Assembly: GCA_905235735.1 (NCBI GenBank)
Contig: CAJOMU010000027.1
Coordinates: 1 to 40,521 of the forward strand
Direction: 5' to 3'
DNA: 40,521 nucleotides
From: an uncultured Synergistales bacterium
Lineage (GTDB): Bacteria; Synergistota; Synergistia; Synergistales; Aminobacteriaceae
Under the pieces are notes generated by a model. The model saw only the letters and a list, made by a program, of their open reading frames with translations, was not told the DNA's origin and did not search any database. Position numbers and translations under genes: made by a program. Below are positions 30,193-40,521 of this stretch, in pieces (position 1 is the stretch's first letter; each line of letters begins with the position of its first letter).

Positions 30193-31416
30193 CTAGCTGT
30201 ACTGACGTTCAACTGCTCCGTGAACTTCTTCAAGGTCAGCTTCATATTTCTGTCTGAACCTTCCGAAGCATACATCCATCTGCTCATAGAACGTAACACT
30301 CTCAAGTCCTACGAAACGCTGTGCAATAGCCTCAGTTGTCGGCATGTAACGAATTTTCCCGTTGTACATCTTCACGACGGTAACGCCGCTCACACCTTCA
30401 TCAAGAAGAATGACAGCTGCAGAACCGATTTGTTTTCCGAAGTTCACATCATAAGCGGAAGTTGCACCACTCCTGACGATATGACTTGGAATGACTTCGC
30501 GAATTTCAGGAATTTCAAAAACGCCAGGCACATACATTCCTGATGTCTTCATGAACTGCTTAATCTCTGGGTCTTCTTTCATCATTGCTTCGAGAGTTTC
30601 CTTCACGAATCTTCCTGCACCTGCAAGTTTCGGATGACCGAACGAATCTTTTGCAACACCGCCGCCGTCTGAGAATAATTTTCCGTCCTCGCCCCTCACG
30701 CCTTCAGCAACAACGATTGTGTATGTCCCAGCGTGAACGTCAGACCTGAGAATACGCCTGATGTAATAGTGCTTAAGATGAGCATACACAGCATTGAAAT
30801 CAACGGGCACTTCAGGAATGAGAATGCAGTCAGCATCAGCCGCAATTCCTCCCCTGAATGCTGTATGTCCTGCATACCGTCCGAATACTTCAACGACCAT
30901 GATTCTATTATGAGTAGTACCTGTTGTCTTGAGGTCGTCTACTATGTCGGCTATTTTATTGATTGCCGAATCTCCTCCGACTGAATACGTCTGAAGGTCT
31001 AAGTCCATTGTCTTTGGTGCATGTACGCAGGGTATTCCGTGTTCTGAAAGGTCAACAACGACGCTTCCTGTGTCATCACCGCCGGAAATCAGAAGGCCAT
31101 CGATATTATGCTTGCGAAGTCCCATCATGATTCGGTCATATTTGTCAGGGTCTTCAATTTTTGAGATCTTCACTCGGCTGTGTCCTGCATCACTTCCTGC
31201 GAATTGTGAGTTTACGTGATCTGTGCGTTCTTCATCGAGTTCAACGAGGCGGTCGAAGTCAACGAGGTTATAGAGACCAGCATAGCCATTCGGAATGGTG
31301 TAAGTACGAATGCCACGCATTAAGGCTGTTTTTGCTGCGCCTCTGATAACGGCATTGAGACCACCGCAGTCTCCTCCTGAAGTGATGATACCGATATTCT
31401 TCATTTTGTTGCTCAA
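30193..31416 (-). CDS. 6-phosphofructokinase, PPi-dependent type by motif
   Basis: A 407-residue member of the PFK family (glycolysis, fructose-6-phosphate phosphorylation). The N-terminus GIITSGGDCGGLNAVIRG fits the family. Two positions tell phosphoryl donor: GGDD (112-115), where ATP enzymes have GGDG, and PKTMDLD (134-140), where ATP enzymes have PGTIDND. Asp and Lys there indicate pyrophosphate use and a reversible reaction. The start is TTG at 31416 with GGAG 10 nt upstream; an in-frame ATG at 31404 lies too far from it. It is a single-gene unit with a TATAAT at 31460-31465. Confidence 0.88.
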   Translation of the reverse strand: MSNKMKNIGIITSGGDCGGLNAVIRGAAKTALMRGIRTYTIPNGYAGLYNLVDFDRLVELDEERTDHVNSQFAGSDAGHSRVKISKIEDPDKYDRIMMGLRKHNIDGLLISGGDDTGSVVVDLSEHGIPCVHAPKTMDLDLQTYSVGGDSAINKIADIVDDLKTTGTTHNRIMVVEVFGRYAGHTAFRGGIAADADCILIPEVPVDFNAVYAHLKHYYIRRILRSDVHAGTYTIVVAEGVRGEDGKLFSDGGGVAKDSFGHPKLAGAGRFVKETLEAMMKEDPEIKQFMKTSGMYVPGVFEIPEIREVIPSHIVRSGATSAYDVNFGKQIGSAAVILLDEGVSGVTVVKMYNGKIRYMPTTEAIAQRFVGLESVTFYEQMDVCFGRFRQKYEADLEEVHGAVERQYS

Positions 31417-31459
31417 GATAAAAAGTCTCCTTTGTGAATGAGATTATGTAGATGAGTTA

Positions 31460-31465
31460 ATTATA
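31460..31465 (-). promoter_or_regulatory. -10 element of the phosphofructokinase promoter
   Basis: Minus-strand TATAAT, 44 nt above the TTG start. No clear -35 hexamer is present at 16-18 nt. Confidence 0.4.
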
Positions 31466-31491
31466 CAGTGATTTGAAAATTTGAGGCTAAA

Positions 31492-31519
31492 TTGACACAC
31501 GAAAATAATAAATTAAAAT
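31492..31519 (+). promoter_or_regulatory. Promoter reading into the omega-RNA-like repeat and flavoprotein operon
   Basis: TTGACA (31492-31497) and TAAAAT (31514-31519) are 16 nt apart. Transcription would begin at about 31526, next to the left edge of the repeat copy (31523), and continue through a leader of about 220 nt to the ATG at 31749. Confidence 0.65.
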
Positions 31520-31522
31520 TAC

Positions 31523-31631
31523 CGCAATAAAAGATGGTTGGGGCATCAACCATTGGAGGAGAACTAGTAAGACCATAGTAATATGGCAGGTTTGTAGATG
31601 CCAGAATCCACTAGCTTTAGCAGTATGTCAA
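31523..31631 (+). ncRNA. Omega-RNA-like scaffold / IS200-IS605 right-end copy A (no tnpB attached)
   Basis: This 109-nt block is the inverted copy of 40394-40509, identical over the first 87 nt except for nothing I could find by eye, then losing 7 nt in the terminal hairpin. Predicted elements in order: a 7-bp hairpin ATGGTTG/CAACCAT near 31534-31553, the segment GGAGGAGAACTAGTAAG, a small ATGGCAGG region, AGAATCC, a shortened hairpin (CTaGC-TTTA-GCAG), then GTATGTCAA. The copies diverge exactly after TCAA, which equals the right cleavage site of IS608-type elements. Such right ends overlap the scaffold of TnpB guide RNA, and the bases after TCAA would be the guide. No tnpB lies upstream. It may be a dead fragment, or a transcribed stand-alone RNA. 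Confidence 0.5.
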
Positions 31632-31651
31632 GATACATTTTCCAGAATACG

Positions 31652-31727
31652 AGGCTGGACAGACCAGCATAAATTGAGAGATTGAATCAAAGCAGCCTGG
31701 AACAAAAAAACGGGGCTTTTATTTTTT
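31652..31727 (+). promoter_or_regulatory. Possible attenuator-like leader of the flavoprotein operon
   Basis: GCTGG (31654-31658) can pair with CCAGC (31664-31668). AGGCTG (31652-31657) can instead pair with CAGCCT (31693-31698), and that same AGCC can pair with GGCT (31714-31717), directly before a U-rich tract (31717-31727). The pairings exclude each other in the manner of a terminator/antiterminator. The terminator stem is only 4-5 bp, so this is tentative. I recognise no known riboswitch class. Confidence 0.3.
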
Positions 31728-31748
31728 GAAGGTGGGATTCAGAAATCA

Positions 31749-33236
31749 ATGAATTATGATGTAATTATCATTGGCTCAGGCATAGTCGGTGCATCAATAG
31801 CACGTGAACTCTCGAAGTATAAACTCAGAATAGCAGTTCTCGATAAAGCATCAGAATTGCCGTCAGGTGCATCACGAGCAAACAGTTCAATGATACACGG
31901 AGGATTCGACGATAAGCCCGGAAGCATGAAGGCGAGGTTATGCGTTCCAGGTAATAAGAAGTGGCACAAACTGAAGGATGAACTCGATGTACATCTTGAT
32001 GAATGCGGTTCATATGTCTGTGCATTCAATGACGAAGAAATAAAACATCTTGAATTACTGCTTAAACAGGGGAAGGCTAACGGAGATCCGGGAATTGAAA
32101 TCATTACCGGCGATGAATTACGGAAGCATGAACCTAATGTATCACCTGAAATAGTTGCGGCGTTATGGTCTCCGGATGCGGCAATCATAAACAACTTTGA
32201 GGCCGTTAATGCGATGATTGAGAGTGCGAAGATTAACGGTGCGGAATTATTCCTTGAGACAGAAGCTATAAGTCTTCTCTTTGATGACAGGAAGAACATA
32301 CGAGGAGTTATGACTAGTAAAGGGGAATTCAAAGCACCTGTAGTGATAAATGCGGGAGGAGTACATTCAGGGGAAATATCATCATGGGCAGGAGATAAGA
32401 GTTTCAGAATTATTCCGACGAAGGGCGAATATATTTTGCTCGACAGAAGTACTAAAGGATTAATTCACAGCTTTTTGTTCTCTTGTCCGTCGAAAGCAGG
32501 AAAGGGAATTACAGTTTTGCAGACATCAGAAGGAAATATGATGTCAGGCCCAACTGCAAGCGAGCAGGAAGACCCGGAAGATAAAACGACAACTTCCGAA
32601 GGATTAGCGGAAGTGATAAAGGGTGCGAGAAGATTAGTACCGAAATTCCCAGTGAACATGAGCATAACGACATTCGCGGGTGTTCGTGCAAACACTGATA
32701 CAGGAGACTTTGCAATTTCTGTTCTGAGAACTCCGAGAGGATTTGTGAACGTAGCAGGGATTAAGTCGCCAGGATTTACATCAGCACCGGCAATTGCAGA
32801 ATACATTGTTGAGGCAATGCGTGAAGAATTATCCGACCGAATTAAATTTGAACCTAACGATAAATTCATTCCCGAACGCAGGAACATTCCGAGATTTCTA
32901 TATCTTAGTATGGACGAACGGAAGAAACTAGCAAAAGAGAACTCATCATATGCACAGATAGTTTGCAGATGTGAGACCGTAACAGAAGGCCAAGTAGTAG
33001 AGGCAATTCGTCGTGGAGCAAGAACGATTACGGCAGTGAAGATGATGACTAGAGCGGGAACAGGAAGATGTCAGGGAGGTTTCTGCTGTCCAAGAGTTGC
33101 GGAGATATTATCGCGTGAACTGAATATCCCGTTAGACGAAATCACGAGGCACGGAGGAAAATCAAAACTGTTAGTCGGAAAGACAAAAGAATTTTTGCTT
33201 GAGAAATATGCGAAAGGAGCAGGTCAAAATGTCTGA
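31749..33236 (+). CDS. FAD-dependent oxidoreductase, GlpA-like, with C-terminal BFD-type [2Fe-2S] domain
   Basis: A 495-residue flavoprotein of the DAO/glycerol-3-phosphate dehydrogenase type. The N-terminal dinucleotide motif is IIGSGIVGASIARELSK (7-23). PSGASRANSSMIHGGFD is the FAD/substrate segment of GlpA/LhgO-like enzymes. The last 100 residues hold a BFD-like cluster domain with Cys406, Cys408, Cys441 and Cys446 (CRC ... CQGGFCC). It overlaps the next flavoprotein gene by 8 bp. Together with DUF1667 the three resemble an anaerobic GlpABC-like complex; glycerol-3-phosphate is the likely substrate, but 2-hydroxyglutarate or a related 2-hydroxy acid is possible. Confidence 0.85.
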   Translation: MNYDVIIIGSGIVGASIARELSKYKLRIAVLDKASELPSGASRANSSMIHGGFDDKPGSMKARLCVPGNKKWHKLKDELDVHLDECGSYVCAFNDEEIKHLELLLKQGKANGDPGIEIITGDELRKHEPNVSPEIVAALWSPDAAIINNFEAVNAMIESAKINGAELFLETEAISLLFDDRKNIRGVMTSKGEFKAPVVINAGGVHSGEISSWAGDKSFRIIPTKGEYILLDRSTKGLIHSFLFSCPSKAGKGITVLQTSEGNMMSGPTASEQEDPEDKTTTSEGLAEVIKGARRLVPKFPVNMSITTFAGVRANTDTGDFAISVLRTPRGFVNVAGIKSPGFTSAPAIAEYIVEAMREELSDRIKFEPNDKFIPERRNIPRFLYLSMDERKKLAKENSSYAQIVCRCETVTEGQVVEAIRRGARTITAVKMMTRAGTGRCQGGFCCPRVAEILSRELNIPLDEITRHGGKSKLLVGKTKEFLLEKYAKGAGQNV

Positions 33237-34488
33237 TTCAAAGAAAATAGATGTACTGATAATCGGAGCAGGGCCTGCGGGAGTAGCGGCAGGAATAGGA
33301 GCGCGTAAAGAAGGAGCAGAACGTGTTGTAGTTCTTGAACGTGATTGGGATTTAGGCGGAATATTACAGCAATGCATACATCCGGGCTTTGGACTTCGGA
33401 CATTCAAGGAGGAATTAACGGGGCCTGAATACATGCACAGATTCATTCAGCAGGCATATGATGCAGGCGTTGAGTTTCACACGAATACTATGGTATTCCA
33501 GATTGATCAGGATACAAATTCCGTGTGGACGATGAACAAAGAACGAGGGATTGAATGCCTGAATCCCGGTGCAATAGTCTTAACGATGGGATGCAGGGAA
33601 CGTCCATTAGGAGCAATACACATACCTGGAACACGTCCGGCTGGAATATACACGGCAGGAACGGCACGAAGATTTGTGAACATGGAAGGGTACATGCCCG
33701 GAAAGCGAGCAGTGATATTAGGTTCAGATAATATCGGTCTAATCATGGCCAGACGAATGATATGGGAAGGAGCAGAAGTTGAAGGTGTCTATGAAGTGAG
33801 GTCATGGCCCGGAGGATTGAGACAAAACATAGCGCAGTGCCTAGATGATTACGGAATACCTTTTCATCTAAAGACGACAGTAACGAAAATTCACGGCAAG
33901 GACAGACTTGAAGGAGTAACGGTTGCGGAAGTTGATGATAGTATGATTCCCATAAAAGGTACAGAAAGATTTGTTGAATGTGATACGCTTCTGCTGGCAA
34001 TCGGATTGATTCCAGAGAACGAATTATCGCGAATGGCAGGAGTTGAGATTCACAAAGTAACGGGTGGGCCTGTAGTGAATGATTTGCTTCAGACCTCGAA
34101 CCCAGCGATATTTGCGGCAGGAAATGTAGTAATAGTATATGACATTGTGGACAACGTGAGCGATGAAGGATTAATTGCCGGAGTGAATGCAGCACGTTAT
34201 GCAATGGGAAAAATTTCTGCGGACATAAAACGTATTCCAGTCATAGGCGGAGAGAATGTTCAGTTGTTTTCGCCTCAATACGTTACAGGCGAGACGGACA
34301 CGACTATATTCATGCGCGTAACACATCCGATTGAAAGTGCATGCAGAGTATTTGCGGAACCCGGAATATATTCGCAGAGACTGAGATATGCGAGACCAGG
34401 TGAGATGAACGAAGTGAAAATTAAGGCGGAACAGATAAAGGCACTGGGAGAACTTAAAGAGATAATGATAGACATTCAGCCGTTATGA
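33229..34488 (+). CDS. FAD/NAD(P)-dependent oxidoreductase (second flavoprotein of the operon)
   Basis: A 419-residue protein of the pyridine nucleotide-disulfide oxidoreductase fold. It opens with LIIGAGPAGVAAGIGARKEG (FAD Rossmann). The second nucleotide motif is VILGSDNIGLIMARRM at about 165-180. GTRPAGIYTAGTARRFVNMEG and the late SNPAIFAAGNVV (FAD-binding ATG-type motif) are typical. It has no redox CxxC pair, so it probably passes electrons between the GlpA-like subunit and DUF1667 or NAD. The start at 33229 is set by AAGGAG 9 nt upstream. Confidence 0.87.
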   Translation: MSDSKKIDVLIIGAGPAGVAAGIGARKEGAERVVVLERDWDLGGILQQCIHPGFGLRTFKEELTGPEYMHRFIQQAYDAGVEFHTNTMVFQIDQDTNSVWTMNKERGIECLNPGAIVLTMGCRERPLGAIHIPGTRPAGIYTAGTARRFVNMEGYMPGKRAVILGSDNIGLIMARRMIWEGAEVEGVYEVRSWPGGLRQNIAQCLDDYGIPFHLKTTVTKIHGKDRLEGVTVAEVDDSMIPIKGTERFVECDTLLLAIGLIPENELSRMAGVEIHKVTGGPVVNDLLQTSNPAIFAAGNVVIVYDIVDNVSDEGLIAGVNAARYAMGKISADIKRIPVIGGENVQLFSPQYVTGETDTTIFMRVTHPIESACRVFAEPGIYSQRLRYARPGEMNEVKIKAEQIKALGELKEIMIDIQPL

Positions 34489-34503: not shown

Positions 34504-34872
34504 ATGAGCGAAAGAAAGTTTATATGCGTATCATGTCCATTAGGTTGCGGTCTGACAGTTACGCTTGACGATAACGATAACATTCTGAAAGTTGAAGGCA
34601 ATACATGTCCAAGAGGGGAGAGTTACGCGAGGAGTGAAGTGAAAGACCCGCGAAGGGTATTTGCGTCAACAGTGAGGGTTAGAGGAGGGAAGTTGCCAGT
34701 GTGTCCAATTCGTAGCAAGACACCAGCACCTAAGGGAAAGTTATTTGAGATTGCGCGTGCGGTTGCAGAACTTGAGATAGATGCGCCGGTTAAGATTGGG
34801 CAAGTATTGCTTCACAATGTGTGCGGGACAGATGTTGATATAGTAGCGAGCAGAGATTTAGCTGCAATATGA
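34504..34872 (+). CDS. DUF1667 cysteine-rich protein
   Basis: A 122-residue protein of the DUF1667 family. Cysteines Cys8, Cys11, Cys15 and Cys35 lie in CVSCPLGC and NTCPRGES, a 4Fe-4S-like arrangement; further Cys67 and Cys107 are present. DUF1667 genes regularly follow a GlpA-like and a second flavoprotein gene in anaerobes, as here, so it is the likely iron-sulfur electron carrier subunit. The ribosome-binding site GGAGGTGA is 6 nt from the ATG. The gene closes the operon. Confidence 0.88.
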   Translation: MSERKFICVSCPLGCGLTVTLDDNDNILKVEGNTCPRGESYARSEVKDPRRVFASTVRVRGGKLPVCPIRSKTPAPKGKLFEIARAVAELEIDAPVKIGQVLLHNVCGTDVDIVASRDLAAI

Positions 34873-37588: not shown

Positions 37589-37659
37589 AATATTTATTTC
37601 CTCCCGATATTGATGTATAATGAAATTTTATTGTGCTGATGGAAGGTTACAAATAGGCT

Positions 37660-37736
37660 ATGCGTGATGCGTGATGCGTGATGCGTGATGCGTGATGCGT
37701 GATGCGTGATGCGTGATGCGTGATGCGTGATGCGTG
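37660..37736 (-). repeat. Tandem 7-bp repeat, 11 perfect copies
   Basis: ATGCGTG (plus strand; CACGCAT on the transcribed minus strand) is repeated exactly 11 times over 77 bp without a mismatch. It begins 1 nt below the -10 hexamer of the MBOAT promoter, so the transcription start falls in the first copies and the array forms the 5' untranslated leader. Confidence 0.97.
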
Positions 37737-37737
37737 C

Positions 37738-37766
37738 ATTATACAAACTTATCACTAGTAAGTCAA
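37738..37766 (-). promoter_or_regulatory. Consensus promoter of the MBOAT/DHHW operon
   Basis: Minus-strand TTGACT (37761-37766) and TATAAT (37738-37743) with a 17-nt spacer, directly followed by the 7-bp repeat array. Confidence 0.85.
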
Positions 37767-37862: not shown

Positions 37863-37953
37863 TGGTGCGGAGGGGGAGAATCGAACTCCCACGATACTTA
37901 AATTGATCACAAGATCCTTAGTCTTGCGCGTCTACCAATTCCGCCACCCCCGC
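37863..37953 (-). tRNA. tRNA-Leu (anticodon AAG), CCA encoded
   Basis: A class II tRNA with a long variable arm. Acceptor stem GCGGGGG pairs with CCTCCGC; the discriminator A is followed by CCA in the DNA. Anticodon stem CAAGA/TCTTG with loop CTAAGGA gives anticodon AAG (A at position 34), reading CTT and, if modified to inosine, CTC. The D-arm GGTAGACG and T-arm GGGAGTTCGATTCTCCC are canonical leucine tRNA features. A34 outside tRNA-Arg is rare in bacteria. Confidence 0.93.
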
Positions 37954-40397: not shown

Positions 40398-40509
40398 CAT
40401 ACTCCCCATAGCTAAAGCTAGGGGATTCTGGCATCTACAAACCTGCCATATTACTATGGTCTTACTAGTTCTCCTCCAATGGTTGATGCCCCAACCATCT
40501 TTTATTGCG
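40394..40509 (-). mobile_element. IS200/IS605-type right end with omega-RNA-like scaffold, copy B
   Basis: The full 116-nt version of the repeat, read leftward: hairpin ATGGTTG/CAACCAT, AGAATCC, a strong terminal hairpin (CCCC-TAGCT-TT-AGCTA-TGGGG with a bulge) and GTATGTCAA at the edge, the IS608-like right cleavage site. The bases that follow (leftward from 40393) would be the guide. The element body, and perhaps tnpB, would lie right of the window: only 12 nt remain, and on the minus strand they contain a possible TGA stop (GAAAAGTGA). Confidence 0.65.
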
Positions 40510-40521
40510 TTCACTTTTCTG

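Follow-up and report, generated by a model that had tools for sequence, protein, structure and literature searches.

The window analysed here, the whole stretch of 40,521 nt, corresponds to contig C27 of a genome assembled in 41 contigs (2.1 Mb, estimated completeness 99.78%). A protein search with the product of its glpO-like gene named ruminant-gut Synergistaceae genomes as relatives. The glpO-like gene opens a three-gene operon on the plus strand, and pfkA lies to the left on the minus strand. The interval between them contains a promoter-like site, a repeat unit referred to as copy A, and a fragment of glpK (Table 1). The initial annotation had described copy A as one of two repeat copies with no tnpB beside it, and both statements were confirmed: positions 31515-31621 match 40411-40517 as an inverted pair over 107 nt (96% alike), and tnpB does not adjoin the repeat. 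Copy B reaches the contig end, where its upstream side is cut off. Elsewhere in the window, a tandem repeat of the 7-mer ATGCGTG was seen at 37646-37750, close to a tRNA at 37866-37953.

Table 1. Features of the pfkA-glpO interval, its neighboring genes and the second repeat copy.
Feature	Position	Strand	Evidence
pfkA (phosphofructokinase), left neighbor	30193..31416	-	Pfam PF00365, 5e-60
TTGACA-16-TAAAAT promoter-like site, read as ancestral glpF promoter	31492..31519	+	11/12 consensus bases
TTAC, motif preceding left ends of related elements	31519..31522	+	direct sequence reading; TTTAC/TTAC before left ends elsewhere in genome and genus
CGCAATAAAAG, short piece retained from the element	31523..31533	+	comparison with copy B and complete elements L006/L004, L007
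Copy A, TnpB omegaRNA/right-end unit, terminal hairpin broken	31534..31631	+	covariance model 91.4 bits, E = 2.8e-17; alignment of 31 units
Guide-position segment GATACATTTTCCAGAA	31632..31647	+	3' part aligns to glpK end (right-flank alignments to relatives)
glpK 3'-end remnant and glpK-glpO terminator/leader	31649..31736	+	nhmmer, E = 6.7e-6
glpO-like FAD-dependent oxidoreductase, first gene of downstream operon	31749..33236	+	Pfam DAO 7.5e-68, Fer2_BFD
Pyridine nucleotide-disulphide oxidoreductase, glpO operon	33199..34488	+	Pfam Pyr_redox_2 1.2e-30
DUF1667 protein, glpO operon	34504..34872	+	Pfam PF07892 1.9e-30
Copy B, omegaRNA/right end, intact, truncated upstream by contig end	40394..40498	-	covariance model 121.6 bits; folds with terminal hairpin

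The initial annotation also assigned the repeat to the right end of an IS200/IS605 element encoding a guide scaffold for TnpB, and this part of its interpretation held. At loci L035 and L040, the tnpB frame runs (...CPNCHTHHDRDKNAAKNIL and ...CPECGAKHDRDRNASINIL, respectively) directly into the unit, and the unit likewise forms the 3' end of the tnpB frame in approximately ten further cognate loci (about a dozen inspected). The TnpB of L040 (379 aa) matches the Pfam OrfB_IS605 and TNB domains, aligns over its full length with ISDra2 TnpB (E = 1e-55) and retains the D, E and D residues of the catalytic site. In an alignment of 31 units, 95.6% of cells are paired in a common fold, 110 double-change cells were observed versus 36 expected from shuffles, and covariation was 0.400 compared with 0.03-0.061 when the pairing partners were slid. 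Since the unit overlaps tnpB 3' ends and has a covarying common fold, the family of copy A is identified, on sequence grounds, as the right end of an IS200/IS605-type element that constitutes a TnpB omegaRNA scaffold. Rfam returned no match for copy A at gathering or permissive thresholds, and only a tRNA and chance matches for complete elements. In copies A and B, the first loop and GATGCC would pair perfectly as a pseudoknot, but 20 of the 31 copies have lost its third pair and no compensatory change is seen, so the pseudoknot is not claimed. The IscB RRXRR family had no match in this genome and none in the control genomes either.

Copy A is not a special copy. The genome holds seven family copies by BLAST and eight by covariance model, which places six elsewhere in addition to copies A and B, and the flanks of the eight are mutually unrelated. 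This fits the situation that the initial annotation had itself set against its proposal, namely many decayed copies with random flanks. The loss of 7 nt from the terminal hairpin, by comparison with copy B, was also described there correctly (TATGGGG is missing). The accompanying statement that a shorter hairpin could still form was not supported; the predicted stability of copy A does not surpass that of shuffled sequence (z = 0.18), a hairpin of the copy B type is missing from its predicted fold, and among the 31 aligned units it alone has no right arm. The intact terminal hairpin that precedes the guide in an omegaRNA is thus absent, and the damaged scaffold would presumably be unable to load TnpB or act with a guide. 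A copy on contig C31 has the CCACTAG change in common with copy A yet keeps the arm, indicating that the 7-nt loss came after that change.

The left end of copy A, with its left-end hairpin and internal promoter, is also missing, and nothing of the element remains to the left of CGCAATAAAAG. Use of the element's internal promoter by copy A was considered and dropped on this account. Two complete elements, C5:150.7k (L007) and C20/C25 (L006/L004), have both their left and right ends, whereas copy A has no left end and was classified as a truncated relic. The second of these is split over the end of C20 (L006) and the start of C25 (L004), which belong together as one tnpB-less element splitting a dicarboxylate-type symporter gene. 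A single frame of 413 aa is restored when its flanks are joined at the TTTAC on the left and immediately after ...TGTCAA on the right. By this reconstruction the insertion is precise, without target duplication, and IS200/IS605-like, and sequence 3' of TGTCAA is plain host sequence. Insertion at a fixed motif without target duplication therefore characterizes the family, as seen at C20/C25 and in the TTTAC that precedes recently amplified copies in another genome of the genus (G034). Copy A is preceded by TTAC, and its left edge, where TTAC meets CGCAATAAAAG, may mark either an insertion junction with a subsequent internal deletion or the end of a deletion of glpF and glpK. At several more contig ends of the genome, too, the sequence breaks off inside such an element.

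The gene order at this locus in relatives is pfkA followed by glpF-glpK-terminator-glpO. Here, glpF and most of glpK are missing at 31417-31748 and the glpO-type operon is kept; a MIP-family protein was not found anywhere in the genome, although control genomes were positive. With a nucleotide model built from ten relatives, the glpK remnant listed in Table 1 was the best match in the whole window (next match, 0.024). The right flank of copy A gave alignments to L052 and L043 beyond all 500 shuffles, and pairwise alignments to L053 and L051 that were not significant against 500 shuffles. The ten-relative model is a stronger test of this remnant, which is short and frameshifted, than single-pair alignments. 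For the left flank, both alignments with the pfkA-glpF spacer (L053 and L052) exceeded every one of 500 shuffles, mainly via the pfkA leader. The closest relatives by pfkA flank (G001 and G038) carry other genes at the locus, and so we infer the ancestral glpFK state from more distant relatives.

The promoter-like motif reported in the initial annotation is present, but its assignment to copy A did not stand. Six of eight relatives have the motif TGA[CT]A-16/17-TAAAAT upstream of glpF (shuffle probabilities ≤0.004), the remaining two lacking its exact form, and on the plus strand of the window it occurs once, at 31493. Because of this conservation and single occurrence, the most fitting identity for the site is the former glpF promoter. 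On this reading, copy A lacks the dedicated promoter expected of a stand-alone omegaRNA gene. Given the good match to consensus, a transcript from this promoter is quite likely.

The segment in the guide position, which the initial annotation had placed directly after the scaffold, is present as well, but it runs into the glpK remnant. Elsewhere in the genome it matched nothing with 0 or 1 mismatch and just two sites with 2 mismatches. A search of the assembly yielded no cognate TnpB for copy A, and no protein in it exceeded 33% identity. The genome's four TnpB-type proteins are located off the window (nearest ~26-33% identity) and have different right ends, no tnpB-like gene was found in the window, and the sole Y1 tnpA found in the genome is broken by two stop codons. 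A multi-copy tnpB could be missing from the assembly because contigs break at these very repeats.

These observations bear on whether copy A acts as a guide. It is very improbable that copy A is a functional trans-acting omegaRNA, transcribed from the upstream promoter and used by a TnpB encoded elsewhere to cut or repress a target specified by GATACATTTTCCAGAA. The promoter is placed for an RNA start at the left edge of the unit, the helices that precede the terminal hairpin remain able to pair, and solo copies are commoner than tnpB-linked ones in the genus, all of which would suit such a function. However, the hairpin adjoining the guide has been lost in this copy only, the TnpB-type proteins on offer are distant and belong to other right ends, and the guide-like segment leads into local glpK debris. 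With neither a cognate TnpB in the assembly nor a second guide site at 0-1 mismatch, a working trans guide from copy A is unlikely. A related proposal, that copy A supplies a regulatory guide for the metabolic operon to a dead, TldR-like TnpB, is so improbable that it can hardly be entertained. RNA-guided repressors of that type exist (PMC13418256), but the window lacks a tnpB-like gene, the four TnpB-type proteins are too distant to share this right end, and the same target search applies. The stand-alone omegaRNA gene proposed by the initial annotation thus resolves into the promoter of a lost glpF, a glpK remnant in the place of the guide and a broken hairpin, with no cognate TnpB in the assembly. 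The underlying observations (the repeat pair, the absence of an adjoining tnpB, the promoter-like motif, the 7-nt loss and the 16-mer) survive, apart from the shorter hairpin, and the family identity survives without the special status of copy A as a guide gene with its own promoter.

Copy A is very probably a fossil rather than a new regulatory RNA. The glpF promoter, the glpK debris, the lost hairpin arm and left end, and the eight copies without cognate tnpB in the assembly point to a decayed, left-truncated and hairpin-damaged right end of a tnpB-less IS200/IS605-group element of the kind known as PATEs. A deletion between pfkA and glpO would have taken out glpF and almost the whole of glpK, leaving copy A at the scar, the order of insertion and deletion being inferred. 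The TTGACA-TAAAAT site would be the surviving glpF promoter, and, if it is still active, RNA starting at approximately 31526 would pass through copy A, then through what is left of glpK with its former terminator, and on into glpO. We consider it highly probable that copy A is a relic at a glpFK deletion scar behind a surviving glpF promoter.

By this arrangement, copy A probably reads as part of the 5' leader of the glpO operon. It is a further step, and an improbable one, to suppose that the relic has been co-opted as that leader, its RNA structure or the old terminator tuning glpO with no guide function. Promoter, relic, glpK terminator remnant and glpO do follow each other in that order and in one direction, but the fold of copy A gives no sign of selection on the damaged structure and conservation at the locus could not be shown. 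The preferred reading of copy A is still that of a relic, and it demonstrates a trap: gene loss alone can place a transposon-end RNA beside a good promoter.

The covariance model detected at least one unit in 25 of 43 genomes of the genus. When 95 listed units were sorted, leaving aside 47-nt pieces in G042 and the weakest matches, 26 adjoined a cognate tnpB segment, 61 did not, and eight at contig edges could not be judged. Solo units therefore outnumber tnpB-linked ones (at least 61 vs 26). The G042 pieces, ten copies of the 3' end of the unit (e.g. L154 and L155), lie at or near contig ends, so a multi-copy element has probably broken that assembly too. In G024, an intact cognate tnpB is accompanied by seven or more near-identical elements of ~160 bp, laid out as a left-end hairpin, a TATAAT-like box and then the unit. 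G034 has ~13 near-identical tnpB-less omegaRNA elements (e.g. L145-L150) following TTTAC/TTAC, with N in part of the stretch preceding the unit; a cognate tnpB was not found in this genome, which is 79% complete. The near identity of the G034 elements suggests recent spread, though no cognate tnpB was found there.

A left-end promoter ahead of the omegaRNA is kept in several intact tnpB-less elements of the genus. An exact TATAAT was present in 10 of 16 solo copies, and in an informal test the single-copy shuffle probabilities of those ten ranged from 0.03 to 0.22. A tentative suggestion is that the intact mini-elements are mobile omegaRNA genes that keep the left-end promoter and lend guides in trans to the TnpB of another element, the nuclease thereby protecting or spreading non-autonomous copies. 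Such lending is plausible, but we hold the complete scheme to be doubtful. If it occurs, copy A would represent a dead member of this population. Intact tnpB-less elements from elsewhere in the genus are of greater interest than copy A, although their kind is already known, and this genus of rumen Synergistaceae, with its excess of solo units, offers a good natural system for the question of TnpB in trans.

In some tnpB-less elements, a stretch of ~230 nt separates the left end from the omegaRNA unit, as in L007:1262-1490 (C5:150734-150962). The same stretch is found in C20, G023:C230 and G040:C5, and partly in G041:C1. It lies behind a TATAAT box, is 88-92% conserved across species, has no Rfam match and may represent another structured RNA.

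A tnpB element elsewhere in the genome, L008 (C30:15132-18479), encodes a 437-aa TnpB-type protein and begins on the left with a core resembling that of a group I intron (GGTTCAACGACTA...AAGATATAGTC). This gives it the look of an IStron (PMC4227781), and the genes around it look like phage genes. Because this element has such a core, an IStron reading was considered for the C5 and C20 elements and rejected, no intron match being found. Copy A differs from IStrons in that Rfam found no intron core in or near it.

The ISDra2 TnpB reRNA, or omegaRNA, derives from the 3' end of tnpB and the right end, with ~16 nt of flank serving as guide (PMC8612924). The RNA unit described here occupies the same position, and its cognate TnpB is homologous over the full length. 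Copy A differs in having no tnpB beside it; in addition, TTAC/TTTAC takes the place of TTGAT as the preceding motif, and the present unit is known from sequence. Stand-alone trans-encoded omegaRNAs were reportedly found with IscB/TnpB systems by Altae-Tran et al. in 2021. Copy A resembles these in being an omegaRNA unit with no nuclease gene beside it, but it is damaged and has a host promoter left by gene loss.

There is also a likeness to palindrome-associated transposable elements (PATEs) of the IS200/IS605 type, found for example in Haloquadratum walsbyi (PMC3119063), and to an ends-only element of Halanaerobium hydrogeniformans (PMC7290912). PATEs are short elements that contain nothing beyond their palindromic ends plus the tnpB 3' end, make no target duplication, and are thought to be products of core deletion (PMC3119063, PMC7290912). 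The tnpB-less members of the family share with them the short tnpB-less form, the palindromic ends with a tnpB 3' end and the lack of target duplication. Copy A departs from the arrangement of left- and right-end palindromes with no gene between, having lost its left-end hairpin and broken that of the right end. The intact family elements in the genus differ from PATEs in another way, as an internal TATAAT box is often retained ahead of their omegaRNA.
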